Shown here: positions 33,613 to 50,860 of the stretch, piece by piece
Position numbering within the stretch: position 1 is the first letter of the stretch
Layout: every line of letters begins with the position of its first letter
Source: Anaerostipes rhamnosivorans
Lineage (GTDB): Bacteria; Bacillota; Clostridia; Lachnospirales; Lachnospiraceae
Assembly (NCBI RefSeq): GCF_005280655.1
Contig: NZ_CP040058.1
Location: 1,464,001 to 1,528,000 of the forward strand
Direction of reading: 5' to 3'
Length of the DNA: 64,000 nt
Translations under genes and position numbers: made by a program
The notes under the pieces: model-generated
The model's input: only the letters and a program-made list of their open reading frames with translations
Database searches by the model: none
Told to the model about the DNA's origin: nothing

Positions 33613-33630
33613 AAGAAAGGAAATGTGTAA

Positions 33631-33882: not shown

Positions 33883-33895
33883 GAAAGGAGCTTAT

Positions 33896-34807
33896 ATGAA
33901 AGGCATAAAAAAGCAAAAAAAAGAAAAAAAGCAGAAACCGGAAAAAGTCCGGGTAATGAAAGTTGGGGTCCACAGAAAATCAGTAATTTTTCTGTGGATT
34001 CTTTTGATTTGTAGTGTCGCTTTTGGAATCTACAAGAATTTTACTGCGATTGACATGCATACGGTGCATGAGAGGAAAGTAGAAAAAGAAAAACTAGTGG
34101 ACACAAACGGGATAGAAAACTTTGTTCGAAACTTTGCAGAAGCGTATTATACGTGGAGTGCCGGAGACAGCGGCGTAGGTGATCGTTCGGAAAAGGCAGG
34201 AAAGTTCTTGACAGAAGAACTTCAGACCTTGAATGCGGATGTGTTAGGACAAAAAGTTTCTACGTCTTCCAGTGTGAAAGACGTGGAAATTTGGTCTGTT
34301 TCGCCGTCCGAAAAGGACAATGAGTACAAAGTGATTTTCTCTTTAAAACAGGAGATCAAAGAGGGAAGTAAACAAAAGGAAGTATCTTCTGTATATCGTG
34401 TGGTCGTGCATGTAGATACAAGTGGAAATCTGGTCATTGTTCAAAATCCAACGATCAGCAGTGTGCCGGAGAAAAGCGGCTATCAGCCGGAAATTGCGGA
34501 GGTAGATGGATCAGTCGATTCCAAAACTTCACAAGAGGTAACAGATTTCCTTAAAACATTCTTCAAACTGTATCCACAAGCACAGGCAAAAGAACTCAGC
34601 TACTATGTCAAAGGGGATGTTTTAAAACCTGTGAATAAGGAAAGTTATTCCTTTATGGAACTTTTAAATCCGGTGATACAGAAAGACGGAGAGAAGATCA
34701 AAGTTTCTGTGGCGGTCAAATATCTGGATCAGGAGACAAAGGCAGTACAGATCAGTCAGTTTAACTTGAAGCTTCAAAAGGATGGGAACTGGATGATTGT
34801 AAGGTGA
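33896..34807 (+). CDS. TcpC-like conjugal transfer protein (Tn916 Orf13, VirB8-like)
   Basis: 303 residues. Very basic cytoplasmic start, one membrane helix (SVIFLWILLICSVAFGIY, about 27-44), then two NTF2-like outside domains (about 70-175 and 195-303), as in TcpC of pCW3 and Orf13. The start at 33896 follows AAAGGAG; an in-frame upstream start lies inside the preceding gene. Last gene of the canonical transfer core. Confidence 0.9.
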   Translation: MKGIKKQKKEKKQKPEKVRVMKVGVHRKSVIFLWILLICSVAFGIYKNFTAIDMHTVHERKVEKEKLVDTNGIENFVRNFAEAYYTWSAGDSGVGDRSEKAGKFLTEELQTLNADVLGQKVSTSSSVKDVEIWSVSPSEKDNEYKVIFSLKQEIKEGSKQKEVSSVYRVVVHVDTSGNLVIVQNPTISSVPEKSGYQPEIAEVDGSVDSKTSQEVTDFLKTFFKLYPQAQAKELSYYVKGDVLKPVNKESYSFMELLNPVIQKDGEKIKVSVAVKYLDQETKAVQISQFNLKLQKDGNWMIVR

Positions 34808-34809
34808 GG

Positions 34810-34995
34810 TTAAGATTCTCGCCGATAGAAGTAAACAATGACCACAAGCAAAAGAAATAGGAGATAGCCTCCTAGTAATGATGTTAGGAGGTGCTCCCAC
34901 TTTTCTTTGTAATAAGTAGTTTTAAGAGAGATGAACAGGAAAGAAGCAGAAGTAAAATTGAAAATGAATTTTTTTAAAAAAGAAAGAAGATTCAT
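34810..34995 (-). CDS. Possible small membrane peptide, minus strand
   Basis: 61 codons on the minus strand with AGGAG 9 bases before the ATG. The C-terminal half is strongly hydrophobic (LLGGYLLFLLLVVIVYFYRR), reminiscent of type I toxin peptides, and the CCTCCTA/TAGGAGG hairpin (34870-34893) lies inside the frame. It is the only content of the 200-bp gap between the transfer core and the next gene. It may be spurious. Confidence 0.35.
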   Translation of the reverse strand: MNLLSFLKKFIFNFTSASFLFISLKTTYYKEKWEHLLTSLLGGYLLFLLLVVIVYFYRRES

Positions 34996-35011
34996 GGAAA
35001 GGAACTCCTAA

Positions 35012-35386
35012 ATGGACTTTATTTATTTTGTTTTAGGTTTTTTTTTGATGCCGGCTGTGTTATATGCACTTAATAAATGTTATGGACCGCAGAAATATCA
35101 GGTGCAAATTTATTTTGAACATTTTGAATCAGTAGAAGTTGTATTATCTTCTGAAAAGTTATACGAAAATTCTTATCCTAGTATAACAGAACTTCTGAAA
35201 AATGAAAATATGATCCATGGGGATTATTTCGTTTACAAAAAAGAAGAGGAATGGATTGAAATTCCTATGAGGGAGGTGACACAAATAAAAATGAAAAAAA
35301 TAGGTGGAAAGGTAACAAAAGAAAGTGATTGTAGTTTCACAGAAAAAGCAAAGATACTATTTAGAAAAATTTGGACAAAGAAATAA
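35012..35386 (+). CDS. Single-pass membrane protein, unknown
   Basis: 124 residues. N-terminal helix (IYFVLGFFLMPAVLYAL), then a soluble basic domain. The ribosome site is AAGGAACTCC. Starts a run of small genes between the transfer core and the pilus module. No family recognised. Confidence 0.72.
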   Translation: MDFIYFVLGFFLMPAVLYALNKCYGPQKYQVQIYFEHFESVEVVLSSEKLYENSYPSITELLKNENMIHGDYFVYKKEEEWIEIPMREVTQIKMKKIGGKVTKESDCSFTEKAKILFRKIWTKK

Positions 35387-35396
35387 GAAGATTTGT

Positions 35397-35525
35397 TTGA
35401 ATTTTTTAAATCGTTGGATTTGTGTCGGAAAGTATCGAAGCATTATGAGGACTACACAAGTCATGAGTGAACTTTATGATGCTTTTGTTTCCGGGGAAAT
35501 AGAATTTTATATGCCGGAGGAATGA
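35397..35525 (+). CDS. Possible small protein (TTG start)
   Basis: 42 codons ending RTTQVMSELYDAFVSGEIEFYMPEE. It begins with TTG and has no convincing ribosome site, but its composition looks protein-like and the next gene starts 4 bp after its stop. Weak call. Confidence 0.3.
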   Translation: MNFLNRWICVGKYRSIMRTTQVMSELYDAFVSGEIEFYMPEE

Positions 35526-35529
35526 AGGA

Positions 35530-35757
35530 ATGAATATGGTTGAGGGAGATTTGATCGAATTTGCAAAAGAAGTTATGAAGATGCATCAAAAAGCACTTGG
35601 AGGTCGCTGGGAGGAAGGAGCGATTCACAGTGCTTTTTGTGATTCTAATGGAGATTTTTGTATTCAATATCAAAGCGGGAATATTTATCACTATGAAGTC
35701 ACTCCCTATTTTGAGGCTGAGACAGACAAGGAGTTTTTAGACCTGGAGTGGTGGTAG
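35530..35757 (+). CDS. Small soluble protein, unknown
   Basis: 75 residues. LIEFAKEVMKMHQKALGGRWEEGAIHSAF, ending LDLEWW. Ribosome site GGAGGAATGAAGG. No family recognised; such genes are common in Clostridia mobile elements. Confidence 0.65.
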   Translation: MNMVEGDLIEFAKEVMKMHQKALGGRWEEGAIHSAFCDSNGDFCIQYQSGNIYHYEVTPYFEAETDKEFLDLEWW

Positions 35758-35784
35758 AAAGGAGATTGTTTAAAAGAGGTAATC

Positions 35785-35946
35785 ATGATTAGATGGGATA
35801 AACGAATGAGGGAAAAAGTAGCCGGAAAATGTTGTCCGGTCTGTGGAAAAGCAGTAGATGAAACAACACAAGGTTTGGAATACATACGAACAAGACAGCG
35901 AAAAGATGTTTTTATTCACAAGGATTGTATCAAAAAATGGAGGTGA
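35785..35946 (+). CDS. Small zinc-finger-like protein
   Basis: 53 residues. CCPVCGK (residues 16-22) and HKDCIKKW (45-52) give a CxxC...HxxC metal-binding pattern. GAGGT lies before the ATG. Ends in TGGAGGTGA, which provides the ribosome site for the next gene. Confidence 0.6.
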   Translation: MIRWDKRMREKVAGKCCPVCGKAVDETTQGLEYIRTRQRKDVFIHKDCIKKWR

Positions 35947-35953
35947 AAAAAAA

Positions 35954-36127
35954 TTGAAACAAGCAAAGAAGCTGACAAGGAAACAGAAAGAGATTGTTTC
36001 GGAACATCGGTTAAATCCGGGAAACTGGATGGCCTTAGAGGATTCTAAGGACTGTTTAATTATTTGGCATAAGAAAACAGGAACGGTAAAGAAAATAAGA
36101 AAGGAGGATGTATGGAACACTTTTTAA
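35954..36127 (+). CDS. DUF6906-like small protein
   Basis: 57 residues. KKLTRKQKEIVSEHRLNPGNWMALEDSKDCLIIWHKKTGTVKKI matches the pattern of a small family found in Clostridia phages and ICEs. TTG start, GGAGGTG 9 bases upstream. Overlaps the next gene by 16 bp. Function unknown. Confidence 0.7.
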   Translation: MKQAKKLTRKQKEIVSEHRLNPGNWMALEDSKDCLIIWHKKTGTVKKIRKEDVWNTF

Positions 36128-36387
36128 TAGAGTTGTTAAAGGGAATTCGTTTTATTGTACAGATCTTTAGTCGTTTGTTTCAACGTGTCATGAATTGTTT
36201 TTCTTTTGCTGTTTTGTTTTGTGTTGTTTGTCAAAATGGATGGCTTCCATGGCTTGTAAAAGGGAATGTTTCAGCAGAAGATTTTCAAAACTTTTTTGCT
36301 AGTGTTTTGGTCATATACTCAGTAATTTATGTTGTAAAGCTCCCGTTTTTTTTAATTCGATTGGGTGAAGGAGGTTTAGACAATTAA
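36112..36387 (+). CDS. Membrane protein, unknown
   Basis: 91 residues with two to three hydrophobic segments (about 8-45 and 62-82). AAGGAGG before the ATG. Its stop codon lies within the start of the XRE gene that follows. Confidence 0.68.
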   Translation: MEHFLIELLKGIRFIVQIFSRLFQRVMNCFSFAVLFCVVCQNGWLPWLVKGNVSAEDFQNFFASVLVIYSVIYVVKLPFFLIRLGEGGLDN

Positions 36388-36838
36388 AAAGGAATATCGT
36401 AAAAATATAGCCAGAAATATAAAAGAATATCGGCAACGAGAAGGAATGAATCAAAAAGAATTTGCGAAAACCATAGAAATGAATTATCAAAACTATTCTC
36501 AAATGGAGCGCGGTTTATATTTTCCATCATTAAATAGGCTAATGGATATTTGTAAAACATTACAGATTACACCGAATGACTTATTATTAGAACAGATGGA
36601 TAATGAGAGTAAAGAAATGACATTAGGTGATGTTTTTGTAGGTAATACGAGAGAAAGGAGACATTCTATGAGATATGATGTAAGGCCTGTTGTTTGTGAT
36701 TATGGAGTGTTTGAAGATGGACGATTAATATTGATTTGTAACTGTAGTAAAAACGCATTGCTGATTCAAAAAATTTTACAAACGGATTGTGAAAGAGAAG
36801 TATATGTAGAAGAAAATAAAAAAGGAGAAGAAAAATGA
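36383..36838 (+). CDS. XRE-family regulator with probable ATT start
   Basis: 151 residues if translation starts at ATT 36383, 9 bp after GGAGG. The N-terminal helix-turn-helix (RKNIARNIKEYRQREGMN, QKEFAKTIEMNYQNYSQMERG) is complete only with this start; the first ATG (36446) would cut helix 1. There is no in-frame ATG, GTG or TTG between the upstream stop (36377) and 36446. The C-terminal part (SMRYDVRPVVCDYGVFEDGRLILIC) is a separate small domain. Overlaps the next gene by 4 bp. It probably controls the pilus region. Confidence 0.75.
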   Translation: MKKEYRKNIARNIKEYRQREGMNQKEFAKTIEMNYQNYSQMERGLYFPSLNRLMDICKTLQITPNDLLLEQMDNESKEMTLGDVFVGNTRERRHSMRYDVRPVVCDYGVFEDGRLILICNCSKNALLIQKILQTDCEREVYVEENKKGEEK

Positions 36839-37116
36839 AGAAAAGAATGATGATGTTGGTTATGGTATGCATGATGATGTTTGGAAGCGTATCTGTGATG
36901 GCGGCTCCGAAAAAGGTGACAGCAGAAAAACAGAATGTAGTGGAATGGGTAAAAGAAGCGGCTGATTTTTCAAAAGACACTGCAAAGGAACGTCATGTCC
37001 GGTATATGGGAATTGGAGCGATGGTATTTTCAGCACTTGGAGTTTTTGTTCTTGTTCCTCTTGCAAAGCGTCATGTTGCAAAAGGTGTCGGAGGGGAAGA
37101 AGAAGACGAAGAATAG
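36835..37116 (+). CDS. Small secreted/membrane protein before the pilus ATPase
   Basis: 93 residues. Met-rich signal peptide (MLVMVCMMMFGSVSVMAA, cut after about residue 24), a short outside segment, one membrane helix (MGIGAMVFSALGVFVLVPLA) and an acidic end. Overlaps the XRE gene by 4 bp and precedes the ATPase by 12 bp. Possibly a pilus assembly accessory; no family recognised. Confidence 0.7.
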   Translation: MKKRMMMLVMVCMMMFGSVSVMAAPKKVTAEKQNVVEWVKEAADFSKDTAKERHVRYMGIGAMVFSALGVFVLVPLAKRHVAKGVGGEEEDEE

Positions 37117-37128
37117 GAGAGCAAAAAA

Positions 37129-38208
37129 ATGAGTGAAAAACAATTAGCAGGGTTAAGGCCGGAACAGTTTGGCCCATTGCTTCCCTTTGTAGAGAATGAC
37201 CAGATTACAGACATCAACTGGGCCAATGGTCAGTTGATCGTTGACGATGTGAAAAAAGGTCGTTATCTGGTGGAAAACGTTCATTTGACGGATGAATTTT
37301 TGAATCAGTTTTCCAGCCATGTTGGAAACATTCCATCTGTCAATGCAAACCTGACTTCTGTGAATCCTGTCGTGGAAGCGGAAGGGAATGGGTTAAGAAT
37401 AGAAATTGTCCATGAATCTGCGGCAGTCAATGGAAAGACTATCTCGATTCGGAAGTCTCTTCCGTATGCGAAACTTACGGATGAATCTATAATCAAAGAC
37501 GGTTACTGTACAAAGGAAATACAGTATTTTTTAAAAAGTATGGTTTTGGCACAGGTAAACATAGCGATTGCAGGACTTGTGGGAGCTGGAAAAACAGAGT
37601 TGTTAAAGTATTTGACTTTAACGATTCCGGCGATGACCAGAGTGGTCACGATTGAGGATAACTTGGAAGTACATTATTCCAAACTGAATCCGGGGAAAGA
37701 TTGTGTGGAATTAAAAGTAAATCCTTCCTTTGGTTATGTAGATGCACTTGTGACTTGTTTAAGACTTCGGACAGACTGGATTCTTCTTTCGGAAGCCCGG
37801 AGTACGGAAGCAAAGTATCTGATTGAAAATATTTCTACGGGAAACAACTGCATCACGACGCTTCATGCGGATGATGCTAGAAAAATCCCGGTCCGGCTCC
37901 GAAACATGATGGATGATCCAATCATTGGGGAGAAGATGGAAAGTGATACTTATAGCTATTTGAATCTTGGTATTTATGTTCGGCGTAAAATGTTGGCAGA
38001 TGGTCGTATTATTCGCCGAATCGAACAGATTGTTTGTTTTGGAAAAAACCAGGAAGATCGCAATGTGTGTCAGTTGATCGTTAACGATGGAAAGTTGATT
38101 TCCAGAGACTTGACAGAGGAAATTGAAAAGAAATTGAAACGGGTAGGGATTCAGAATCCATTTAAAAATCCTTATCCACAGATGGAAGAATTTATGAGAA
38201 AGGAGTAG
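37129..38208 (+). CDS. CpaF/TadA-like secretion ATPase
   Basis: 359 residues. Hexameric ATPase of the type II/type IV pilus superfamily. N-terminal domain (about 1-130) with VVEAEGNGLRIEIVHESAAVNGKTISIRKS (Tad/CpaF pattern), Walker A GLVGAGKTELLKYL (about 148), Asp box TIEDNLEVH, the Walker B-like ILLSEARSTEAKYL in place of the usual VGEVRGxEA, and His box ITTLHADDA. It directly precedes the inner-membrane platform gene (2-bp gap). In an ICE that already has VirB4 and FtsK-like motors, this third ATPase points to a separate pilus. Confidence 0.9.
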   Translation: MSEKQLAGLRPEQFGPLLPFVENDQITDINWANGQLIVDDVKKGRYLVENVHLTDEFLNQFSSHVGNIPSVNANLTSVNPVVEAEGNGLRIEIVHESAAVNGKTISIRKSLPYAKLTDESIIKDGYCTKEIQYFLKSMVLAQVNIAIAGLVGAGKTELLKYLTLTIPAMTRVVTIEDNLEVHYSKLNPGKDCVELKVNPSFGYVDALVTCLRLRTDWILLSEARSTEAKYLIENISTGNNCITTLHADDARKIPVRLRNMMDDPIIGEKMESDTYSYLNLGIYVRRKMLADGRIIRRIEQIVCFGKNQEDRNVCQLIVNDGKLISRDLTEEIEKKLKRVGIQNPFKNPYPQMEEFMRKE

Positions 38209-38210
38209 AT

Positions 38211-39734
38211 ATGGGAAAAAAGAAAGGAAAGAAAAAGAAGAAAAAAATCAGTACCTTGCAACTGCTTAATTTTAAAAATCTTCAGACGGAGATTTATGGA
38301 TATGGTTATGAGTATACGTTTACAAAGTATGTCAGCAACCTGTTTTTGTATCTGTTTGCAGTTTTCTGTTTTGGAAAACTGTATCAGTTGGAAATTAAAT
38401 ATATCCTGATTTTGTGTGCAATTTTCTTTTTGCTTCTGCCACGGGTGTTTTTATCTGAGTTCAAACGCCTGCATGAGCAGAAGCGGTTTGATGATACTGT
38501 AAAATATATGCGCCAGCTAATCAACTGTTACGATCGGGAGCCGCACAAGATTCTGCCGGCGTTAAAGGAAACGAGAAAGGTTTTTCAGGAAGAAGAGCCG
38601 ATGTATGAATGTATTACAAAAGCAATTCAACTGATCGAGACAAATGTCGATGATCCTGACATGTATCAACATGCTTTTAAGATCATAGAAAAAGAATACC
38701 ACTGTGATGAAATCAGGCGGCTTCACTCTTATCTAATCCGGGTGGAAGAAGAAGGTGGAAACTTCCATCAAATGCTTCATATTCTTTTGAATGATACGAT
38801 CCGATGGCAACAGCGGGTTTATAAATTTCAGAAGGATAAACAATGGCAGAGAGTCCTTGCCGTTGTCATGATTTTTGTTTGCATGATTTTAGGCTTGGCA
38901 ATGTCTATCATGTTCATGCAGTTAAGGGATCAGATCAATATTTTTAAGGAATTGTCTTACCAGATATCACAGGCTCTTTTCCTTGGATGTTATATGTTTA
39001 TCTTTGCAAAAGTACAACGATCCACAGATTATTCCTGGCTTACAGTCGCAACCAAGGGAAATACAGAACAGATCAGCCGGGATTGGGAACTTGTTCGTCA
39101 TATGGATAAGAAAAAGGAACGAAAACAGGCAATGTTGAAAACGTTGATTTCGGTTCCTTTTTTTCTTGCAGGCATTTTTCTAAAAAATGTTTACTTAGGG
39201 ATTGCTGGCGTAGGAATTGTTTATTTTATGCTGACCAGTCCAGCAAGAAAGTTAAATAATGCAAAAAAACGGTTGAGAAAACTTGTGGAAATGAAATTCC
39301 CGGTGTGGCTGACCAATGTGATTTTATCTTTGCAGGGAAAAAACCTGTACTTATCCATTAAAGAGTCTTTAAACAAATGTCCGTTTGTTTTAAAAGACGA
39401 AGTAAAAAAGATGCTTTCTGAAATGGAAGAGCATCCAAAATCCAGTCTTCCGTTTGACCATTTCGCCAATGAGGTGACAACACCGGAGATTCAAACAGCG
39501 ATGGGAAATCTCTATAGCATTGGTGACAGCGGGGAAAATTCTGACCAGCTGGCAATCTTGATTGAAAACAATAATCAGTTGGTTGACCGGGCGGAAAACT
39601 TGAAAAATGAAAACAAGGTAGCGCTTTTTGGCTCTAATATGTATATCCCGTCGTTTGTTATGGTCATGCAGATCGGCACGATCATGATTATTTTGTGTAT
39701 GGGATTTTTAAAGATGATGTTAAAAGCAGTATAG
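38211..39734 (+). CDS. TadB/TadC-like pilus platform protein (type II secretion F family)
   Basis: 507 residues. Basic start, membrane segments near 42-80, 210-260, 305-340 and 480-503, and two cytoplasmic helical parts: RFDDTVKYMRQLINCYDREPHKILPALKET (TadB-like first half) and MKFPVWLTNVILSLQGKNLYLSIKESL...NLYSIGDSGENSDQLAILIENN (TadC-like second half). Tad loci normally have two ~300-residue proteins; here one longer protein may serve both. Follows the ATPase by 2 bp. Confidence 0.82.
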   Translation: MGKKKGKKKKKKISTLQLLNFKNLQTEIYGYGYEYTFTKYVSNLFLYLFAVFCFGKLYQLEIKYILILCAIFFLLLPRVFLSEFKRLHEQKRFDDTVKYMRQLINCYDREPHKILPALKETRKVFQEEEPMYECITKAIQLIETNVDDPDMYQHAFKIIEKEYHCDEIRRLHSYLIRVEEEGGNFHQMLHILLNDTIRWQQRVYKFQKDKQWQRVLAVVMIFVCMILGLAMSIMFMQLRDQINIFKELSYQISQALFLGCYMFIFAKVQRSTDYSWLTVATKGNTEQISRDWELVRHMDKKKERKQAMLKTLISVPFFLAGIFLKNVYLGIAGVGIVYFMLTSPARKLNNAKKRLRKLVEMKFPVWLTNVILSLQGKNLYLSIKESLNKCPFVLKDEVKKMLSEMEEHPKSSLPFDHFANEVTTPEIQTAMGNLYSIGDSGENSDQLAILIENNNQLVDRAENLKNENKVALFGSNMYIPSFVMVMQIGTIMIILCMGFLKMMLKAV

Positions 39735-39747
39735 GCAGGTGATAGAA

Positions 39748-39852
39748 GTGAAATTAGACCGGATCATACAGGAACTAGCGGAAAATGGGATTGGAATTGT
39801 TTTTGGAGCAATTCTGATCGGGGTTTTTAAAGTACTTTGTGACTCACTATAG
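39748..39852 (+). CDS. 34-residue pilin-like peptide
   Basis: GTG start after GGTGATAGAA. It reads LAENGIGIVFGAILIGVFKVL, which follows the same AE-N/S-G-hydrophobic-G-LIG pattern as the four tandem 52-residue genes (VAESGVSVFAGVFLIG). Very probably a minor member of the same pilin-like family. It lies directly after the platform gene. Confidence 0.65.
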   Translation: MKLDRIIQELAENGIGIVFGAILIGVFKVLCDSL

Positions 39853-39865
39853 GGAGGTGTTTTAT

Positions 39866-40066
39866 GTGACGCAGAAAGAGATTATGGAGCGATCTAATGA
39901 AGAAATAACGATAGATGAATTGCAGGAAATGGAAGAGTATTGTGTGGATCTTTGCCGGACAGATTGTTTAGGAAGCAGTGGTTCTCACAGAGGGTGTACT
40001 TGGTATTCTCTTAGTTTTTTGAATGGAGAACAGGTGGATGTTTTTGTGAGAGGAAAATATGAATAA
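39866..40066 (+). CDS. Small cysteine-rich soluble protein
   Basis: 66 residues. Acidic N-terminus, then CVDLCRTDCLGSSGSHRGC with four Cys and one His in 19 residues. GTG start with GGGAGG 9 bases upstream; an earlier in-frame GTG (39839) overlaps the preceding gene. May bind metal or act as a small regulator in the pilus operon. No family recognised. Confidence 0.62.
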   Translation: MTQKEIMERSNEEITIDELQEMEEYCVDLCRTDCLGSSGSHRGCTWYSLSFLNGEQVDVFVRGKYE

Positions 40067-40080
40067 AAAGGAGATTAAAA

Positions 40081-40221
40081 ATGGAAGATGAAGAGATCAG
40101 TGAGGTAGGCTCTATGGGGCTTAACGTTTTTGTGACAATCTTGTTTGTTGCCTTTTTTTCAGGGGCAATCCTCTTTTTGAAACACTCAGGGCTGGACTTT
40201 TTAAAAGCCCTGTGTGGGTAA
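40081..40221 (+). CDS. 46-residue membrane peptide of the pilus region
   Basis: Acidic start (MEDEEISEVGSMGLN), one membrane helix (VFVTILFVAFFSGAILFL), short tail. Followed after 9 bp by another pilin-like gene. The layout (short N-terminus with Gly before a long helix) suits a minor pilin or assembly peptide. Confidence 0.58.
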   Translation: MEDEEISEVGSMGLNVFVTILFVAFFSGAILFLKHSGLDFLKALCG

Positions 40222-40230
40222 GGAGGGCGT

Positions 40231-40707
40231 ATGAAACAAGTCATAAAGCTGGTAAAACAAGCGACGGTGGAACTTGTGGTTGCGGGGATCATTCTTGCCG
40301 CATTTTGGGGCATTTTTATGTATCAACTGTCAGACCAGAGTAAGATAAATGATACTGTGAAGTCAAAAAGTAATCAAGAACTGCTGGAAAGAGGGTTTCC
40401 GGCTATTACAGCAAAGAAAACAGTAAAACTGGAAGTAAAAAAAGAGGATATCGTGGATGCCCGTACTTTTGCTAAGGCAGAGGATCAAGAAGACGGCGAT
40501 TTGACGGGTCAAATCAAAACCTATCTTGTAACGGTAGAGGATGGCAAAGAAAAAAAGACGCTGTATGAAGGAAGCAATTTAAATACGGGATCTTCTGTTA
40601 AAGAGTATTCCATTCTCTATGTTGTAAAAAATTCAAGGGGATTAAAAGATTCCAAACGTCTAAAACTGTTACTTATCAATATGGATGGGATATCCTCAGA
40701 AAGGTAG
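40231..40707 (+). CDS. Minor-pilin-like protein with Ig-like outside domain
   Basis: 158 residues. Short basic N-terminus, ATVELVVAGIILAAFWGIFMY as a TadE-like helix (Glu at the start of the helix, as in type IV pilin-like proteins), then an outside domain with VKKEDIVDARTFAKAEDQEDGDLTGQI...YEGSNLNTGSSVKEYSILYVVKNSRG, the pattern of bacterial Ig-like (DUF5011-type) domains. AAGGAGG ribosome site. Candidate minor pilin or tip subunit. Confidence 0.7.
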   Translation: MKQVIKLVKQATVELVVAGIILAAFWGIFMYQLSDQSKINDTVKSKSNQELLERGFPAITAKKTVKLEVKKEDIVDARTFAKAEDQEDGDLTGQIKTYLVTVEDGKEKKTLYEGSNLNTGSSVKEYSILYVVKNSRGLKDSKRLKLLLINMDGISSER

Positions 40708-40719
40708 AAAGGAGGAATT

Positions 40720-41049
40720 ATGAAGCAGATTATGTCACAGGTTACAACCGTATTGTTTTTAGTGTTTGTTGCTTTTTTCTTCCTTTCCATCCTGCTTACC
40801 GGGGCAACCGTCAGTGAAGCGCAGAAGTTTCAAACGGAAGCAGTGGAAGAGATGCAGGCCAGCCATTTTTCATCAGAAGTTATAGATGAATGGCTTTTGA
40901 AAGCAAGAGAAAAAGAGTATACCTTAACCGTTACAAGTGACGGTTTTTACGAAGACCGTCCTTGTTATCGGCTGGAATTAAAATATCCAATCCAGATTTT
41001 CTTTTTCCGGTATCAGACGAAAAATGAGTTGGAAGCTTATGCGCTCTAA
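40720..41049 (+). CDS. Pseudopilin-like membrane protein
   Basis: 109 residues. N-terminal helix (VTTVLFLVFVAFFFLSILLTGATVSEAQKFQTEAVEEM) that runs on into an amphipathic helix, then a small beta-rich domain. The shape is that of TadE/pseudopilin or DUF4320-type proteins. Paralogous to the next gene (A-x-KFQ-A--M, then ADF/SHF-S---I). Confidence 0.68.
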   Translation: MKQIMSQVTTVLFLVFVAFFFLSILLTGATVSEAQKFQTEAVEEMQASHFSSEVIDEWLLKAREKEYTLTVTSDGFYEDRPCYRLELKYPIQIFFFRYQTKNELEAYAL

Positions 41050-41061
41050 AGGAGGGATAGA

Positions 41062-41400
41062 ATGGACAATTTGCCAAAGGCCATCATTGTTTTTATGGGA
41101 ACGATTCTGTTTGGCCTGTTTTTGGTTTCTTACAGCAATACACAAGTATCGGTAAACAATGCAAAGAAATTTCAAGCGGCGATGTCCCAAAAGATGAAAG
41201 CCGCTGATTTTTCAGATTACATCATACAAGAGTGTAAAGAAGAAACAAGGGAAGCTGGATATGAAGCATTGGAAGTAACAAAAGAAAGTGACGACTTGTT
41301 CGTTGTTACTCTAAAGTATCAGGTCAAAAATACGTTATTTTCCGCTGACAAAACATATGAGCGAAAAAGCTATGTTAGATTGGCACAATCAAGTGAGTAG
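41062..41400 (+). CDS. Pseudopilin-like membrane protein (paralogue)
   Basis: 112 residues. Same architecture as the gene before it: helix (IIVFMGTILFGLFLVSY), NNAKKFQAAMSQKMKAADFSDYII, then a beta-rich domain ending VTLKYQVKNTLFSADKTYER. The pair probably builds a heterocomplex below or at the tip of the pilus; inference from Tad systems. Confidence 0.68.
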   Translation: MDNLPKAIIVFMGTILFGLFLVSYSNTQVSVNNAKKFQAAMSQKMKAADFSDYIIQECKEETREAGYEALEVTKESDDLFVVTLKYQVKNTLFSADKTYERKSYVRLAQSSE

Positions 41401-41416
41401 AAGAAGGAGGTAAGCT

Positions 41417-41542
41417 ATGGAAAAAATGTCTATGACTTCAATAACATCGTTGATTTTAAAAGAATGTGAAAAGGGTCACATTCTTTTATTTGATTCAAAA
41501 TCAGATTATAGAAAAGGGTCTGTAAATCAGGAGGTGCTATGA
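41417..41542 (+). CDS. 41-residue peptide coupled to an XRE gene
   Basis: MEKMSMTSITSLILKECEKG...SDYRKGSVNQEVL. AAGGAGG 7 bases upstream; its TGA overlaps the ATG of the next gene (ATGA). No family recognised. Confidence 0.55.
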   Translation: MEKMSMTSITSLILKECEKGHILLFDSKSDYRKGSVNQEVL

Positions 41543-41931
41543 TACTGGATCGTGAAGAAATAGGGAGAAGAATTTATAAGATCAGGAAAGAGAATGGTTA
41601 TACGTTAGAGGAATTTGGACAGATAATAGGAGGTGTTACAAAAGCGTCTGCTTTTGCTTGGGAACATGGTATTCATCTGACAAAAGAAGAACGATTAGAG
41701 AAGATCGCTGATCTTGGAGGGATTTCTCTTTCTGAATTACTTTTTGGTCACCCGGAGAGTTGTTTTAAAAAGAAGTGCTTTGATGTAGAACACTATGGAA
41801 CACTTATAGATGATTATGAGAAGGAATGTGCAGGAAAGTGGATTAGACAAAAAATTTACGTTTATGAAGAAAAAATGTATTTGGAAACATGGTATAACGG
41901 AGATCGAATTCAATTTGTAGAACTGTGGTAA
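41539..41931 (+). CDS. XRE-family regulator
   Basis: 130 residues. Helix-turn-helix at 1-68 (RRIYKIRKENGYTLEEFGQIIG, SAFAWEHGIHL), then a small acidic/aromatic C-terminal domain. Lies between the minor-pilin genes and the tandem pilin genes and ends at a terminator, so it may set the expression boundary between them. Confidence 0.82.
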   Translation: MILDREEIGRRIYKIRKENGYTLEEFGQIIGGVTKASAFAWEHGIHLTKEERLEKIADLGGISLSELLFGHPESCFKKKCFDVEHYGTLIDDYEKECAGKWIRQKIYVYEEKMYLETWYNGDRIQFVELW

Positions 41932-41946
41932 CCAGATGAAGGCTAA

Positions 41947-41976
41947 AGATTGTAAAAATATTTACAGTCTTTTTTT
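41947..41976 (+). terminator. Terminator after the XRE gene
   Basis: AGATTGTAAA / TTTACAGTCT stem (one G:T) followed by seven T. Separates the minor-pilin operon from the tandem pilin genes. Confidence 0.85.
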
Positions 41977-41998
41977 GTTACAGAAAACAGGAGGAATT

Positions 41999-42102
41999 AT
42001 GAGGATTCGTGCGCCGCCAAAAAAAAACACGACACCTGGAAGCATGTTTCACTTGCTGTAAGGTGCTGAAACACTAGGGGTTTGGGGAGCGTAACTCCCC
42101 AA
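41999..42102 (+). promoter_or_regulatory. Leader peptide plus GGGGAG hairpin, copy 2
   Basis: After ACAGGAGG a 20-codon frame (41999-42061) reads MRIRAPPKK...GSMFHLL. Then CACTAGGGGTTTGGGGAGCG with the hairpin TTGGGGAG (42082-42089)/CTCCCCAA (42095-42102), identical to copy 1 (22111-22210) over about 27 bases. It precedes the four tandem pilin-like genes. Confidence 0.72.
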
Positions 42103-42145
42103 GAAACAAAAACAATAGATTCATAAAGAAAAGGAGAAAAGAAGA

Positions 42146-42304
42146 ATGGAGAAAATCATAGGAGTAGTAGCAGAAAGTGGAGTAGCAGTATTTGCTGGAG
42201 TGTTTCTTATTGGAGCAGTGACAGCAGTCTTGGGACCAGCGGTTCAGACAGCATTACAGACAATGATCACAACAATTACAAACAAAGCAGTATCAGTATC
42301 GTAA
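42146..42304 (+). CDS. Pilin-like 52-residue protein, copy 1
   Basis: MEKIIGVVAESGVAVFAGVF then LIGAVTAVLGPAVQTALQTM and a Thr/Ser-rich end. A short hydrophilic start with Glu at position 9-10 before a long hydrophobic helix resembles Flp-type pilins; it has no separate leader and no classical prepilin peptidase site. AAAGGAG before the ATG. First of four tandem genes with exact 179-bp spacing. The 5' half differs from copies 2-4; the 3' half equals copies 2 and 3. Confidence 0.8.
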   Translation: MEKIIGVVAESGVAVFAGVFLIGAVTAVLGPAVQTALQTMITTITNKAVSVS

Positions 42305-42324
42305 AGAAAAGGAGATAGAAAAAC

Positions 42325-42483
42325 ATGGAAAAAATAATTGGGATTGTAGCAGAGAGTGGAGTATCCGTATTCGCCGGGGTATTTTTAATCGGAGCAGTGA
42401 CAGCAGTCTTGGGGCCAGCAGTACAAACGGCCTTACAGACAATGATCACAACAATTACAAACAAAGCAGTATCAGTATCGTAA
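42325..42483 (+). CDS. Pilin-like 52-residue protein, copy 2
   Basis: Protein identical to copy 3. Compared with copy 1, GVVAESGVAV is GIVAESGVSV. AAAGGAGATAGAAAAAC precedes the ATG. Its 5' half is like copy 4 and its 3' half like copy 1, so it is a hybrid. Confidence 0.8.
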   Translation: MEKIIGIVAESGVSVFAGVFLIGAVTAVLGPAVQTALQTMITTITNKAVSVS

Positions 42484-42503
42484 AGAAAAGGAGATAGAAA
42501 AAC

Positions 42504-42662
42504 ATGGAAAAAATAATTGGGATTGTAGCAGAGAGTGGAGTATCCGTATTCGCCGGGGTATTTTTAATCGGAGCAGTAACAGCAGTCTTGGGGCCAGCAG
42601 TACAAACGGCCTTACAGACAATGATCACAACAATTACAAACAAAGCAGTATCAGTATCGTAA
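42504..42662 (+). CDS. Pilin-like 52-residue protein, copy 3
   Basis: Differs from copy 2 by one silent base (GTG/GTA in the AVTAV segment). Same ribosome site and spacing. The near identity over the whole 179-bp unit shows very recent duplication. Confidence 0.8.
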   Translation: MEKIIGIVAESGVSVFAGVFLIGAVTAVLGPAVQTALQTMITTITNKAVSVS

Positions 42663-42682
42663 AGAAAAGGAGATAGAAAAAC

Positions 42683-42841
42683 ATGGAAAAAATAATTGGG
42701 ATTGTAGCAGAGAGTGGAGTATCCGTATTCGCCGGGGTATTTTTAATCGGAGCAGTAACAGCAGTTCTTGGACCAGCAGTCCGGGACGCTTTAGACACGA
42801 TGATTACAACAATCGTACAGAAAGCAACAACAGCTTCATAG
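42683..42841 (+). CDS. Pilin-like 52-residue protein, copy 4
   Basis: N-terminal half equals copies 2-3; the C-terminal half diverges (GPAVRDALDTMITTIVQKATTAS). Followed after 12 bp by a minor-pilin-like gene. Probably one of the two ancestral genes of the array. Confidence 0.8.
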   Translation: MEKIIGIVAESGVSVFAGVFLIGAVTAVLGPAVRDALDTMITTIVQKATTAS

Positions 42842-42853
42842 AAAGGAGCGGCT

Positions 42854-43216
42854 ATGAAAAATGCAATCATTGGGTTGATCGTGGTTGTCCTTGGACTTCT
42901 TACCATCGTTGCATTTTCAAAAATGTCCAGTACCAGCACCAGAGACACGGAACTTAGTACTTGTGTCTCTGAGGCGGTGAAGAACACGATGGATGGAACT
43001 TCGGAATTTCATTCCGACGCAGAAATGGCGCAGGATTTTGAGCGCAATTTAAAAGCAGGAATGAACTCAAAAGGAAAAATAAAAATCATCTATTATGGTG
43101 TGGATTATCAGAAAGGGTTGTTAGATGTGGAGGTGGTACAGACCCATCAAATGGATGGGAAAACAAAAACGATGAAATGTCGCAAAACTTCTGTTTTGGA
43201 AGAAAAGGAACGGTGA
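42854..43216 (+). CDS. Pseudopilin-like protein after the pilin array
   Basis: 120 residues. N-terminal helix (AIIGLIVVVLGLLTIVAF), then STSTRDTELSTCVSEAVKNTMDG and a beta-rich domain (KIKIIYYGVDYQKGLLDVEVVQTH). The pattern resembles DUF4320/TadE-like ICE proteins and the pair at 40720-41400. AAAGGAG ribosome site. Followed after 7 bp by the large secreted protein. Confidence 0.72.
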   Translation: MKNAIIGLIVVVLGLLTIVAFSKMSSTSTRDTELSTCVSEAVKNTMDGTSEFHSDAEMAQDFERNLKAGMNSKGKIKIIYYGVDYQKGLLDVEVVQTHQMDGKTKTMKCRKTSVLEEKER

Positions 43217-43223
43217 TGTAAAG

Positions 43224-45650
43224 ATGAAAGGAAAGAAAAAACAATGGTGGAAACGGCTTTTGTGTATAGTTTTGGGATGTACCATGTTACTTCCGGGGAC
43301 TGTTCCAGTTCTGGCATACAGTTCCGAAACAGCGGACTGGAAAACTATGAACAAGTCTGGGAAATTTTATTTCCAGATCAAGGGAGACGGGAAAACCAGT
43401 AAAGTCTGGATTAATGTAAAACATTCTAAGGATATTGGATGGGACTATTTTACGAATAACTCATCCACATGGACCTGCTCCTTATCTGGAACGAACAACC
43501 ATAACATCAAGCTGAAGGTAAGCAGTGTAAAAACAAAGCAATCTTCGGACAATGCATATACGGTTTTTGTATTTACTTTGTCTTATACTCAGTCTGCACA
43601 CTATAAAAAGAGTTCAGCAGACTATGACAAGCCAGACGGACTTAGATTAAACTATCGGGAGTATACAAAGGACGGGGGTGATGGTGACATTACTTCTGAC
43701 GCTCCTTTGGTTCATAGTAATACAACTAGGAACATTACCATTCAGGTGAACTCCCGCTGTATGGGCATTAATAATACAGACAGCAAAGGTGGAAATAAAA
43801 AACTTTATACAGGTTGCGGAACGACGCTTAATTTCACTCGTCCTAATCGAACGGTTACATTTTCTAATGGTTATGGAGGAAATGTAGCAACAAAGACGGT
43901 TGCGGATGGGGCTTATGTAACTGCTCCGGGAAATCCTACACGTTATGGTTATAACTTTACAAGCTGGACGGGGACTGTAGGGGCAATCGTCTGTGCGAAC
44001 CGCACACATACGGCACAATGGACACCATGGCGACACACGGTAGCCTACAACGCCAATGGAGGTACAGGAACGCCGGGAAGCCAGACAAAAACCTATGGAC
44101 AAAGCCTAAGCATTAGCCAGACAACGCCGATTAGACATGGCTATAACTTTAAGAACTGGAATACGGCTCAGAATGGCACCGGGACAGCCTATGGAAAAAA
44201 CAGCAACTATGCCCATGACCAGAATGGCGGTACAGTTACATTGTATGCTCAGTGGAATCCATGGAAAGGAACGATTGCGTATAATGCCAATGGTGGCAAT
44301 GGGGCACCGGGAAATCAGACTAAAATCTATGGACAATCCTTAACTTTAACAGGAAGTGTACCGATTAGGGCTGGTTATGAGTTTGTCTGCTGGAATACAA
44401 AACAGGACGGAACGGGAACTTCTTATCTGCCGGGTCAGATATATGGTGGAGAAATAATCAAGGATAATGATACGATTCCTTTATATGCCCAGTGGAAAGA
44501 AATCTATCGGGTACAGTATGAATCAGCGGAAGATGCAAAGGGTGATGTCCCAGAGCAAGTACAAACCGTAGAAAAAGACGTAAGGCTTCAGAAAAATAAT
44601 TTTGAAGTATCAAACGCAAAATTCATGAGTTGGAATCTGTTTAAATCAGGGATAACAAGTCCTAAAAAACATGCAGAAGGTGAGACAATGTCTTATGAAC
44701 AGTTACGGGAAGAATCTGATAATTCTGTAAAAGGCACGGTAACCCGGATGTATGCAAAAAGTGTTCAGATGTCCAGTCAGCCAGCATCCGTAAAAAGCAT
44801 GGCAGGAAGTATTCTGCCAACCAATGATTTTACAATGCAGGCTCAATGGGATCGTTTTCCTGAGTTATATCTGAACGATCCTGTTACTGTATTAGAGAAT
44901 GAAAAAGTAACAGGTAAAGATCTAAGGAAGCTAATTAAAATTTGTACTGATAATGAAGATGGCGATATGTTAGACCATGTAAAACTTATAAAAATAGAAT
45001 ATGACAAATCTTCTATGGGATATCAGCCAGAAACAAAGACTTTTGATAACATACCAGAAACGGAAACCATTGATACTTATTTCAAACATTTGAAGAAAGA
45101 TGAAATGGTAGATATTCATGTCACCTTCCGGGTAGAAGACAGTGCTGGAAATGTGACAGAGAAAAAAGGAATTGTTCATGTGAAGTATAATCATCCTCCA
45201 GTGATCAAGGCTCATGATCTTGGCTATTTTGACCAAGAACTGTCTGATGCAGAAAAAGTATTACAGGAAATTCAAAAGAATCCGGTAGTGACGGATAAGG
45301 AAGATGATGAACAAGGTAAAAAGCTGGAAGCTGTAATTTGTGATCCTGAAAAGTTTGGAAAGGAAGAAGTGAAAAATCTTCATCGTGGAACGCAGGCAAT
45401 CATTTATTCAGCGACAGATTCTTTGGGAAAAACAAGTACCTTGAAGGTACAAGTTTACATTGCTGGAAGTAATCCTTATGAAAATGCACCGTTGAGATAT
45501 AGCCGATTCATTAGTAAGAAATTTTTGAACACGTTGGATGAAAACAGTCGTTGGAGAACGAAAGAAGAGTACAAAGAAGCCTTGGAGACTTCTTTGAATC
45601 GGACAGAACCAGTCATGACAGTGGAGTTTCAGTCAGGAAGTACAAACTAG
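43224..45650 (+). CDS. Large secreted protein with InlB B-type (Listeria-Bacteroides) repeats
   Basis: 808 residues. Signal peptide (1-31, LLCIVLGCTMLLPGTVPVLA). A beta-rich first domain (about 35-200), three InlB B repeats (about 205-420; e.g. VAYNANGGTGTPGSQTKTYG ... YGYNFTSWTG ... AQW), then Ig/cadherin-like segments (DNEDGDMLDHVKLIKIEY, VTDKEDDEQGKKLEAVIC). No LPxTG motif or C-terminal anchor. As the last gene of the pilus run it may be a pilus-tip adhesin held by the pilus itself; inference from position. Confidence 0.85.
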   Translation: MKGKKKQWWKRLLCIVLGCTMLLPGTVPVLAYSSETADWKTMNKSGKFYFQIKGDGKTSKVWINVKHSKDIGWDYFTNNSSTWTCSLSGTNNHNIKLKVSSVKTKQSSDNAYTVFVFTLSYTQSAHYKKSSADYDKPDGLRLNYREYTKDGGDGDITSDAPLVHSNTTRNITIQVNSRCMGINNTDSKGGNKKLYTGCGTTLNFTRPNRTVTFSNGYGGNVATKTVADGAYVTAPGNPTRYGYNFTSWTGTVGAIVCANRTHTAQWTPWRHTVAYNANGGTGTPGSQTKTYGQSLSISQTTPIRHGYNFKNWNTAQNGTGTAYGKNSNYAHDQNGGTVTLYAQWNPWKGTIAYNANGGNGAPGNQTKIYGQSLTLTGSVPIRAGYEFVCWNTKQDGTGTSYLPGQIYGGEIIKDNDTIPLYAQWKEIYRVQYESAEDAKGDVPEQVQTVEKDVRLQKNNFEVSNAKFMSWNLFKSGITSPKKHAEGETMSYEQLREESDNSVKGTVTRMYAKSVQMSSQPASVKSMAGSILPTNDFTMQAQWDRFPELYLNDPVTVLENEKVTGKDLRKLIKICTDNEDGDMLDHVKLIKIEYDKSSMGYQPETKTFDNIPETETIDTYFKHLKKDEMVDIHVTFRVEDSAGNVTEKKGIVHVKYNHPPVIKAHDLGYFDQELSDAEKVLQEIQKNPVVTDKEDDEQGKKLEAVICDPEKFGKEEVKNLHRGTQAIIYSATDSLGKTSTLKVQVYIAGSNPYENAPLRYSRFISKKFLNTLDENSRWRTKEEYKEALETSLNRTEPVMTVEFQSGSTN

Positions 45651-45705
45651 AAAGATGGGGCGGTAAGTTGCCGTCCCTATTTCTTTTATTTTGAGGAGGA
45701 GATTT

Positions 45706-45975
45706 ATGAAAAAAGTAGATCGTAAGAAGTTGAATCGTGTGTTGGATGGTTGTTGTTTTGTAATAGACTGTCTTCTTATTTTTTGTTTTAATTTGGTACA
45801 GTTGTTCGGAATGGGAATGTATGCGATTGGTGTTGTGTTTTATTCGGCGCATATATCTTTGTGGGGAATTTTGTTTTTAATATTTAACGTAATTGTCATT
45901 TGTGTTATGAGATTTTTTGTGGTTAATTATTTGCCATCAAAAAATCACGAAAATAGAGGAGGAAATATAAAATGA
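45706..45975 (+). CDS. Membrane protein, unknown
   Basis: 89 residues, two to three hydrophobic helices (CCFVIDCLLIFCFNLVQLFG, HISLWGILFLIFNVIVICVM). GAGGAGGAG before the ATG at 45706. Overlaps the next gene by 4 bp (ATGA). Confidence 0.68.
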   Translation: MKKVDRKKLNRVLDGCCFVIDCLLIFCFNLVQLFGMGMYAIGVVFYSAHISLWGILFLIFNVIVICVMRFFVVNYLPSKNHENRGGNIK

Positions 45976-46382
45976 ATTATCTTGTATTATTTATCATGAT
46001 AGTAAGTATTTGTTGTACGATGTATGACTTAATAAAAATTTTTTGTATGTGCTTGAGGCAGTTGTTCATAAAAAAGTATCGAACAGAGAATATAGCAAGC
46101 GTGATTTTTAATATGATGATGTATGGAATTTTCCTTTTATTTTTTTCTTTCATATTTTTTTTATTGTTAGTAGGTGAATCAGATTTTTCTTTGGGTGAAA
46201 ACTTAGTGTCAGCAATACTGGTTACTTATATTTATGTGGGTATTTATCGGACTCTTACTGTTTGTCTTCGACCAAGGGAACAAGAGTTTCATAATTTAAA
46301 AGAATTTATGAAAATATTTTTTATTGATTTTATTTATGTGCTTGTAGGATTGAATATAAAATTCCATAAAAAAATATGTTAG
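45972..46382 (+). CDS. Membrane protein, unknown
   Basis: 136 residues with about four hydrophobic segments and a basic loop. Coupled to the preceding membrane gene. Neither has a recognised family; together they may form a small membrane complex. Confidence 0.66.
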   Translation: MNYLVLFIMIVSICCTMYDLIKIFCMCLRQLFIKKYRTENIASVIFNMMMYGIFLLFFSFIFFLLLVGESDFSLGENLVSAILVTYIYVGIYRTLTVCLRPREQEFHNLKEFMKIFFIDFIYVLVGLNIKFHKKIC

Positions 46383-46819
46383 CAAAAATTATACTTAGTA
46401 TTGTATCTCTTAAATCTTTATTTTCTAGTAAAGTATAAGGTTTATGGAAGAGCAGAGCAATAAATAAATGAATAAAAATTTTGATATAGTCACGAAGAAG
46501 TAGTATTATAGTCGCAATTTGGAACATAAAGTAAAAAAAACACGCTGGTTGTTGTCTGACCATAAAGTCCAGGAACTTCTTAAGAGTGTGTATATTAAGT
46601 GAAGTATAAGACTTAGAAGCAACAAGATAGTCACTATAATTGCTAGGTGCAAATAAGTTTAGACTTCCAATAGTGAGAACTGTAATGGAAAAGAGAAAGT
46701 AAAATATTAATTATAAGGTTATTGTTGTATATAAATTGTTTTTTATTTGATAAAAGTGTAGTAAGGAAAAACATAAAACAGTACATAAAACAAAAAAATA
46801 TAGAAAATTTCTATATTGA
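46383..46819. other. AT-rich gap without supported gene
   Basis: About 440 bp. A minus-strand hydrophobic frame (46330-46563) lacks a ribosome site and overlaps the end of the plus-strand gene, so it is not called. A short imperfect repeat (ATAGTCAC near 46486 and 46628) is the only structure noticed. Confidence 0.5.
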
Positions 46820-47050
46820 TTAAACCAAAACATAAGCCTTTGCAAGAATATTACTATGTTTAGTAATTATAGTAGAATAATCGTTGTAAATTGAATTTGA
46901 AATATTGACTTGTTGTATTTGTGATTGATTGTTGATAATAGGAAGATCATTGGATAATGATTTAATTTGGATAAATAATTGAATAATAGTAGCTAAACTT
47001 CCTAATAAAGTAATTATACTTAAAAATGTATTAAAATAATAAAGATTCAT
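46820..47050 (-). CDS. Small single-pass membrane protein, minus strand
   Basis: 76 residues: FNTFLSIITLLGSLATIIQLFIQI as membrane helix, then an Asn/Ser/Gln-rich tail. AAAAGGAG lies before the ATG and a full promoter (47074-47102) further up, so it is a real independent gene. No family recognised. Confidence 0.62.
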   Translation of the reverse strand: MNLYYFNTFLSIITLLGSLATIIQLFIQIKSLSNDLPIINNQSQIQQVNISNSIYNDYSTIITKHSNILAKAYVLV

Positions 47051-47073
47051 AAAATTTTACTCCTTTTCATATG

Positions 47074-47102
47074 ATGTTAAATTTTTTTGATTTAATTGTC
47101 AA
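47074..47102 (-). promoter_or_regulatory. Promoter of the small membrane gene
   Basis: Minus-strand -35 TTGACA (47102-47097), 17-bp spacer, -10 TAACAT (47079-47074). Confidence 0.7.
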
Positions 47103-47267
47103 GAAAAAGTCTTTAACATGGAATAATGAGAAAAAAATACATTAAATGAAATTCCTTAAATGTTTATATGGATAAATCACTTTAATAAGAGATTTATGAC
47201 TGAAAAATAATATATAATAGAAGAAAAATATATAAATATAATCATTTAAAAAAGAGAAAATAAGATT

Positions 47268-47296
47268 GACTTTTTTGTATAAATATGATATAATAA
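47268..47296 (+). promoter_or_regulatory. Promoter of the XRE/leucine-rich protein operon
   Basis: -35 TTGACT (47268-47273), 17-bp spacer, -10 TATAAT (47291-47296), 23 bp before the XRE gene. Confidence 0.75.
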
Positions 47297-47318
47297 AAAC
47301 AAAAAAGGAATTTTTTAT

Positions 47319-47588
47319 ATGATACAATATAAGATAGATGTAATAAAGGAATTAAAGAGAGTAGGCATTAATACCACAGTAGCAAAGAGGACAGGAGTCT
47401 TTAGTCAGGTAACAATGCGTAGATTTAAGGAAGGAAATACCGCAATCTCTATTGGAGCATTAAATCGTTTGTGTTGTATTTTGGAGATGCAACCGAGAGA
47501 CATTTTAAAGTTTGTAGAAACGGATCAAGACCGAGAACAAATCTTGCAAGTGTTAGAAGAATATCGACAGAAAAGAAAAGGAGAATAA
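47319..47588 (+). CDS. Small XRE-type regulator
   Basis: 89 residues. YKIDVIKELKRVGINTTVAKRTGV (helix 1-2), MRRFKEGNTAISIGALNRLCCILEMQPRDILKFV: the compact YozG-like helix-turn-helix. Paralogous to the minus-strand regulator at 50592-50798 (both start with YKIDV and end with QP-DILK/EY/F). Cotranscribed with the surface protein that follows 2 bp later, which it probably controls. Confidence 0.85.
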   Translation: MIQYKIDVIKELKRVGINTTVAKRTGVFSQVTMRRFKEGNTAISIGALNRLCCILEMQPRDILKFVETDQDREQILQVLEEYRQKRKGE

Positions 47589-47590
47589 GT

Positions 47591-49999: not shown

Positions 50000-50059
50000 G
50001 TAATAATATTGAAAATTATGCTTAAATATGTTAAAATCTCCCTAAAGGAGGATAAATAA

Positions 50060-50404: not shown

Positions 50405-50455
50405 TGAAAGTTTAGGGATTATTAGAAGAGTAATATAAGACATATTTAAATAATA

Positions 50456-50498
50456 AAAAATACTTAGTTTGCACAAACATGTAAACTAAGTATTTTTT
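50456..50498. terminator. Bidirectional terminator
   Basis: AAAAATACTTAGTTT / AAACTAAGTATTTTT stem with a 12-nt loop and T-tract; A-tract on the other side. Between the membrane gene and the convergent XRE gene. Confidence 0.88.
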
Positions 50499-50853: not shown

Positions 50854-50860
50854 GAGGAAA

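Follow-up and report, generated by a model that had tools for sequence, protein, structure and literature searches.

Why should a conjugative element of the Tn916 type, equipped with a transfer gene set of its own, also carry the genes of what looks like a filament machine? The question is raised by a 64,000-nucleotide stretch of the Anaerostipes rhamnosivorans genome (bases 1,464,001–1,528,000 of a single 3.59 Mb contig; hereafter the window, whose coordinates are used throughout), in which a run of plus-strand genes resembling a Tad/Flp pilus locus lies within an inserted element. The answer that we favor, at a probability of roughly one half, is that a Tn916-type element has acquired a Tad-like adhesive filament machine, most likely for mating contact. 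An earlier sequence-only reading had proposed such a module within a conjugative element, and the list of open reading frames (ORFs) holds every gene that it named, each in its place. It had also put the module forward as its main candidate for an undescribed system; for the machine as such this is not supported, since the same gene set occurs away from transfer genes in related genomes and a related cluster resides on pLS20-type plasmids.

The module is organized around a motor ATPase of the VirB11/CpaF superfamily (37129..38208, plus strand, as are all features below unless stated), which matches T2SSE (PF00437) at E = 2.9e-19 and in whose Walker-A region G149, G154, K155, T156 and E157 are invariant across 16 aligned rows, the window's own included. 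Directly downstream, a 507-residue membrane platform (38211..39734) joins two T2SSF-like repeats in one chain, the equivalent of TadB plus TadC. The Pfam T2SSF match (E = 2e-9) is a single stretch in the N-terminal half; the predicted model displays two six-helix repeats at a predicted local distance difference test (pLDDT) score of 90. A structural search returned OutF, EpsF, SpoIIIAB and PilC as the best rows, yet under the Z score advised for helical folds. The two T2SSF units of a Tad platform are accordingly represented by the two repeats, though fused, unlike TadB and TadC; against two-row alignments of alphaproteobacterial TadB and TadC the platform profile matched weakly (probability 2.0% and 6.5%), and its one match below 0.001 among PDB sequences was a designed coiled coil. 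The fusion is notable because TadB and TadC are held, in passages of PMC6668835, to have arisen by fission of a two-domain platform. The platform is thus of the GspF/PilC kind.

The candidate major pilins are encoded by four tandem 52-residue genes (42146..42841; starts at 42146, 42325, 42504 and 42683, a spacing of 179 nucleotides). A 37-residue pilin-like peptide (39739..39852; GTG start, 34 residues if read from an internal GTG) resembles the first of them, with z = 7.0 and 0 of 1,000 shuffles scoring as high. Between the platform and the array lie a 46-residue one-helix protein (40081..40221), an ORF whose product scores at chance level against a 48-residue chromosomal protein, and a 158-residue protein (40231..40707), a minor pilin candidate for which the family alignment indicates an N-terminal helix and a probable immunoglobulin-like domain; PF16403 was matched by 4 of 23 members of its family, with the window member having no match. 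Two pseudopilin-like proteins of 109 (40720..41049) and 112 residues (41062..41400) follow, the model of the latter comprising helices 4–47 and 52–64 and three strands (pLDDT 92), and a 120-residue one-helix protein (42854..43216) lies beyond the array. The one-helix character of the proteins starting at 39739, 40081, 40231, 40720, 41062 and 42854 was judged by eye; Pfam yielded no informative family for rows of the 112-residue type and no match above cut-off for those window small proteins that were scanned. The module is completed by an 808-residue secreted protein (43224..45650) in which InlB B repeats, as had been read from the sequence, are matched in three stretches (PF09479, List_Bact_rpt, E = 7.8e-27) and which has a conserved C-terminal domain; it may form the tip of the filament.

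Other genes lie within or beside this run. Immediately before the ATPase lies the gene of a 93-residue protein (36835..37116) that seems, by eye, to begin with a signal peptide and to have a single hydrophobic helix after it; Pfam and NCBIfam scans gave no family above cut-off for this protein. A helix-turn-helix regulator (41539..41931; PF01381, 8.5e-9) sits inside the module, and in the ORF list of the host's chromosomal copy, introduced below, no such regulator occupies the equivalent place. Further downstream, a BspA-type leucine-rich repeat surface protein (47591..49999; PF13306, 3.2e-23) has a counterpart adjoining the InlB-like gene of the chromosomal module.

That the module belongs to an inserted element is demonstrated by an empty site. 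The sister species G399 and G402 both have the sequence left of ~20,577 fused to that right of ~55,417, with a dnaK-like gene on one side of the joint and hrcA on the other. This rules out the module being a chromosomal neighbor outside the element; two more distant genomes (G243 and G401) hold ~11 kb of other sequence at the site and are uninformative. A 13-nucleotide direct repeat, AAATTTAAAAAAA, occupies both junctions (20,565–20,577 and 55,418–55,430), so that the empty site and the junction repeats together give an element of ~34.85 kb (20565..55430 with both repeat copies, no strand assigned). Six nucleotides inside the direct repeats lie imperfect 21-nucleotide inverted repeats (left, 20584..20604; right, 55391..55411, minus strand) matching at 16 of 21 positions; these were read by eye, and automatic inverted-repeat searches did not report them. 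Directly left of the insertion is a second dnaK-like gene (18743–20482), hrcA and the main dnaK-type gene lying near on the right.

The transfer functions are those of a Tn916-family integrative and conjugative element (ICE), as the sequence-only reading had asserted and Pfam and NCBIfam matches now confirm. Two DUF961 genes head the operon (22267..22978; PF06125, 6.6e-43 and 1.3e-31), followed by an FtsK/TcpA-like coupling protein (23213..24622; PF01580, 2.1e-9), a MobT relaxase (25246..26430; NF041493, 2e-185, above cut-off), TcpE (27556..27945; PF12648, 5.3e-35), a VirB4-type ATPase (27923..30376; PF12846, 2e-137), a VirB6-like membrane protein of the CD3337/EF1877 family (30380..32446; NF046089, 4.7e-167), a VirB1-like wall hydrolase with lysozyme-like and C39-type peptidase domains (32443..33612; PF13702, 3.4e-29; PF13529, 3.9e-19) and the VirB8-like TcpC (33812..34807; PF12642, 3e-66); ArdA is also part of the set.

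One could suppose that the module is silent, trapped in an element that died upon losing its integrase. Among the 13 ORFs of at least 200 residues in the element, family scans recognized no tyrosine or serine recombinase, and hence no integrase of the kind a Tn916-family ICE would carry (excisionase-sized ORFs were scanned in part), and an IS30-family transposase gene (54283..55332; NF033563, 2.3e-81) lies near the right end. Set against decay are the 21 translated window genes, none of which has an inner stop, and the near-identity of the 52-residue genes, from which the array has probably been amplified recently; we regard a dead element as quite unlikely. The IS30 gene is present in a single copy and was rejected as a repeated mobile unit of the genome. 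The element thus presents precise ends bounded by a direct repeat, yet with no recognizable integrase, a lack on which the sequence-only reading had not remarked.

Given a filament module within a conjugative element, we asked where else its genes occur. Relatives of the ATPase were found in 37 of 299 genomes from the host's family (E ≤ 1e-30) and in 3 of 11 from its genus, the host counted in both; at class level, an ATPase profile reached 1e-60 in 4 of 391 genomes, including the host and one genome of its family. Contigs of species representatives provided 41 related loci, mostly Lachnospiraceae by their titles, with ATPases of 39–50% identity. A platform gene follows the ATPase in all 41 (a complete or partial ATPase ORF was recovered at 40), and a strict recount found the family of the 109- and 112-residue proteins in 40, that of the 120-residue protein in 38 and that of the 158-residue protein (at least 125 residues) in 37. 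Where downstream sequence extends for 6 kb or more (30 loci), these counts were 30, 29 and 27, respectively. Looser counts (41, 38 and 40 of 41) were dropped because iteration had made the profiles absorb short ORFs and members of one another's families. The C-terminal domain of the large protein recurs in 31 of 41 loci, and in 27 of the 30 with sufficient downstream sequence. The order of ATPase, platform and small proteins, mostly with the large protein, therefore recurs more than chance would allow.

The host itself possesses a second, chromosomal copy (443.5 kb) whose genes are arranged alike, the two ATPases being 47–49% identical. This copy also includes a gene for a CPBP-type protease. 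Such Rce1-like membrane protease genes lie inside the chromosomal modules of the genus (L081:16834–17508; L136; L138), beside the module only in the host, G399 and G402 and in none of the 41 loci; the protease could process pilin-like proteins.

Elsewhere, transfer genes were not seen beside the module. VirB4, the VirB6-like protein, the wall hydrolase and TcpC were found in none of the 41 loci (flanks of up to 10 kb, some contigs being shorter). Across 38 genomes, namely the 37 with the ATPase plus G243, a close VirB4 was present in four, and ATPase and VirB4 lie within 10 kb of each other only in the host. Conversely, neither ATPase nor platform was found at any of 30 other Tn916-type VirB4 loci, examined as stretches running downstream from within VirB4 (22 of at least 12 kb, 8 shorter). 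The idea that Tn916-type elements conserve the module is hence rejected; its absence from these relatives speaks against a conserved role in the ICE family, and because of it the module was probably acquired by this element. No plasmid DNA match of the module was found, and no relative of the ATPase was confirmed among viral contigs. An 83-kb human-gut record labelled Bacteriophage sp. (L141, MT835474.1) encodes the same ATPase and a platform-like protein at 20001–22827, as well as an ORF at 27.7–28.9 kb that resembles a ParM-type actin by eye; the record may represent another mobile carrier of the module.

This distribution is also what one would expect were the same filament mere colonization cargo, carried as a fitness trait that lets its bearer adhere to mucus, food particles or other cells and takes no part in DNA transfer. 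The machine stands away from transfer genes in the other genomes, the host's chromosomal copy is followed by InlB-like and BspA-like proteins, and related elements do without it. We consider this a serious contender, although we would not expect it to prevail, on account of two observations: a duplicated leader within the element, and the setting of the related plasmid cluster.

A structured leader (22108..22215), identified by alignment and folding, precedes the two DUF961 genes with which the transfer operon opens, and a second copy is positioned precisely before the pilin array (41996..42107). The copies share an identical run of 31 nucleotides and are 89% identical over 112 alignment columns. 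In the fold of each copy, a strong hairpin comes after a nested stem (z = −2.4 and −1.8), and two U-A pairs of one copy are replaced by C-G in the other. With one mismatch at most allowed, the core pattern is confined to these two places in the host genome and was otherwise seen in 1 of 199 other genomes, where it lies 1.5 kb upstream of a Tn916-type VirB4; a related copy lies upstream of VirB4 in L098. The leader matches no known Rfam family at gathering score, and a low-threshold scan of the second copy remained far below the cut-offs. Leaders with the hairpin UUGGGGAGCGUAACUCCCCAA were thus observed in a few Tn916-type transfer operons (both window copies; L166:7464–7491; L098:5276). Comparison of just two copies is suggestive of pilin expression being tied to transfer, and this duplication, which sits poorly with a colonization trait, is the best evidence for such a link.

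If the module is in the service of transfer, might the ATPase be a VirB11 in the strict sense, driving the conjugation channel, with its neighbors as accessory channel proteins? Sequence does not separate CpaF from VirB11 here: scores for CpaF, VirB11 and the archaeal-type 2oap were alike, so the superfamily is clear, while the sequence does not decide between VirB11 and the CpaF/TadA likeness given by the sequence-only reading. In NCBIfam the best score was to VirB11 (9.1e-30, below cut-off), above TadA, and passages of the pLS20 papers name the plasmid homolog VirB11. We built a tree of 22 module ATPases (one from the gut record labelled phage), 4 of the pLS20 type, 2 CpaF and 5 VirB11/TrbB rows. 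Module and pLS20-type rows each formed one group, jointly split from CpaF and VirB11/TrbB with 100/100 support; in this unrooted tree, in which four of the five VirB11/TrbB rows are on long branches, the window ATPase falls outside both named sets. A channel ATPase is further disfavored by the platform gene in 41 of 41 loci and the VirB4-free flanks of all 41 (both genes being present in the window), and by the lack of the ATPase in related Tn916-type elements. A VirB11 conjugation channel with a GspF/PilC-type platform is not known, and we consider this alternative very unlikely.

The pLS20-type plasmids provide the closest parallel on transfer DNA. When plasmid records were ranked by the ATPase, the best 30 of 4,604 were plasmids of Terribacillus, Virgibacillus, Enterococcus, Niallia and Bacillus, most annotated as CpaF/VirB11; a Listeria plasmid was also among the matches listed. 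In the four plasmids that we compared (pBatNRS213, pHTbeta, pT1 and pLIS15), a large surface protein and a small membrane protein precede the ATPase, which is followed by two hypothetical proteins of 245–276 residues and a DUF4320-like protein. This cluster sits in or beside the transfer region and is annotated only as VirB11 and hypothetical proteins; further tiny one-helix proteins occur in three of the four plasmids, two of them identical in pBatNRS213. Profile pairing matched the N-terminal half of the platform with the first protein after the plasmid ATPase (P = 1.9e-7) and the C-terminal half with the second (3.9e-6), the 112-residue family with the DUF4320-like protein (2.1e-4) and the 120-residue family with the protein upstream (3.8e-5), while nine pairings with alignments of unrelated transfer proteins gave 0.0072–0.94 and the crossed pairs 0.0085 and 0.053. 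The element therefore holds the composition of the plasmid VirB11 cluster, an ATPase beside a platform with DUF4320-like and 120-residue-like counterparts. The first plasmid half is similar to the second at 1e-4; neither matched the two-row TadB/TadC profiles (0.15–0.55), and Pfam T2SSF was found in 0 of 8 plasmid halves. A record labelled as Listeria phage (L142, OR848116.1) contains a pLS20-type VirB11 cluster and a Tie-like adhesin, and has the look of a conjugative-plasmid fragment to which a phage label was wrongly given.

The same order is found in pAW63, for which a part of PMC1196294 lists a 1,416-residue surface protein, proteins of 125, 50 and 120 residues, VirB11 itself (444) and proteins of 278, 250 and 121 residues. 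Statements on VirB11 differ: portions of PMC12857230 describe Gram-positive type IV secretion systems (T4SSs) as universally lacking it, and portions of PMC13037476 credit pLS20 with a homolog missing from other monoderm T4SSs; in an excerpt of PMC8092201, Gram-positive T4SSs seem not to form pili. Both the location of this cluster, next to a large surface protein, and the description of that neighbor in pLS20 as a mating adhesin (in passages of the pLS20 literature) run counter to a colonization-only role.

We thus return to a filament for mating contact. In the proposed mechanism, the ATPase hexamer would drive the one-chain, two-repeat platform, which would assemble the 52-residue one-helix proteins into a thin filament with the 109-, 112-, 120- and 158-residue proteins as putative minor pilins. 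The InlB-repeat protein, via its conserved C-terminal domain, would be exposed as an adhesin, either on the filament or on the surface of the cell. Pilin output should rise together with transfer, because a copy of the transfer leader stands before the array, and the filament would most likely grip recipient cells, or a surface, during mating. The gene set, its location in the element, the two-repeat fold as predicted, the conservation and the pLS20-type relation are computed results; filament assembly, single-protein roles, joint regulation and the mating function are what we infer from them. More tentatively, and with the odds somewhat against it, some Gram-positive conjugative elements may build a mating pilus for which they use, instead of the T4SS, a Tad-like machine with leaderless mini-pilins, the pLS20-type 'VirB11' being its motor, and the present element may have independently coupled such a machine to Tn916-type transfer via the shared leader. 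Were this true, the isolated 'VirB11' of pLS20 would be explained, and donor-recipient holding, a missing step of Gram-positive conjugation, would become testable as a donor's grip on recipients in liquid or in the gut, for instance by Bacillus subtilis deletions. Among the literature matches listed, titles and abstract openings contained neither a description of a Tad-like module in a Tn916-type element nor a recasting of the pLS20 VirB11 cluster as Tad-like.

How does the element compare with known systems? With the Tn916 family it shares the transfer set, its VirB4 being up to 67% identical to relatives, and it differs in the filament module and in having no integrase recognized. With canonical Tad, or type IVc, machines it shares the CpaF-superfamily ATPase, paired T2SSF-like platform units and very short pilin-like proteins, and its minor pilin candidates may be TadE-like; it differs in its fused platform and in pilin-like proteins without a cleavable leader. 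Flp pilins have such a leader and E+5/Y+6, whereas the 52-residue proteins are leaderless and read AESG by eye. Scans of the 13 ORFs of at least 200 residues, the IS30 ORF being covered by a single scan, revealed no TadZ or CpaB/RcpC family, and the locus has no A24 prepilin peptidase (TadV), the two A24 genes of the genome being far from both the element and the chromosomal copy. With leader-bearing Flp pilin, TadV and TadZ missing, we therefore term the machine Tad-like and not a proven Tad system.

The chromosomal Tad-like loci are alike in ATPase, fused platform, the three families of minor pilin candidates, Flp-like small proteins and the large protein with the same C-terminal domain. They differ in flanks free of transfer genes (up to 10 kb) and in an EYG motif, which small proteins at 20 or more of the 41 loci have in place of the element's ESG or ENG, although these relatives likewise begin close to the motif. 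The copies of the genus have the extra CPBP gene, and the host's own copy is without the transfer leader. The conjugative plasmid R64 has, next to its T4SS, a type IV-like thin pilus with which recipients are gathered when mating takes place in liquid; it is Gram-negative, of type IVb, and comes with a prepilin peptidase and a secretin. The likeness would lie in the pairing of a T4SS with a type IV-like pilus, here a putative one. The pLS20-type cluster differs in that its platform is split over two genes where the element's is fused, its surface protein is of the thioester/SpaA/MucBP type where the element's is InlB, the plasmids carry another T4SS gene set, and the tiny plasmid protein has no clear match to the 52-residue protein (z = 1.9); the likeness consists of the gene order together with profile matches for both platform halves and for the 112- and 120-residue proteins.

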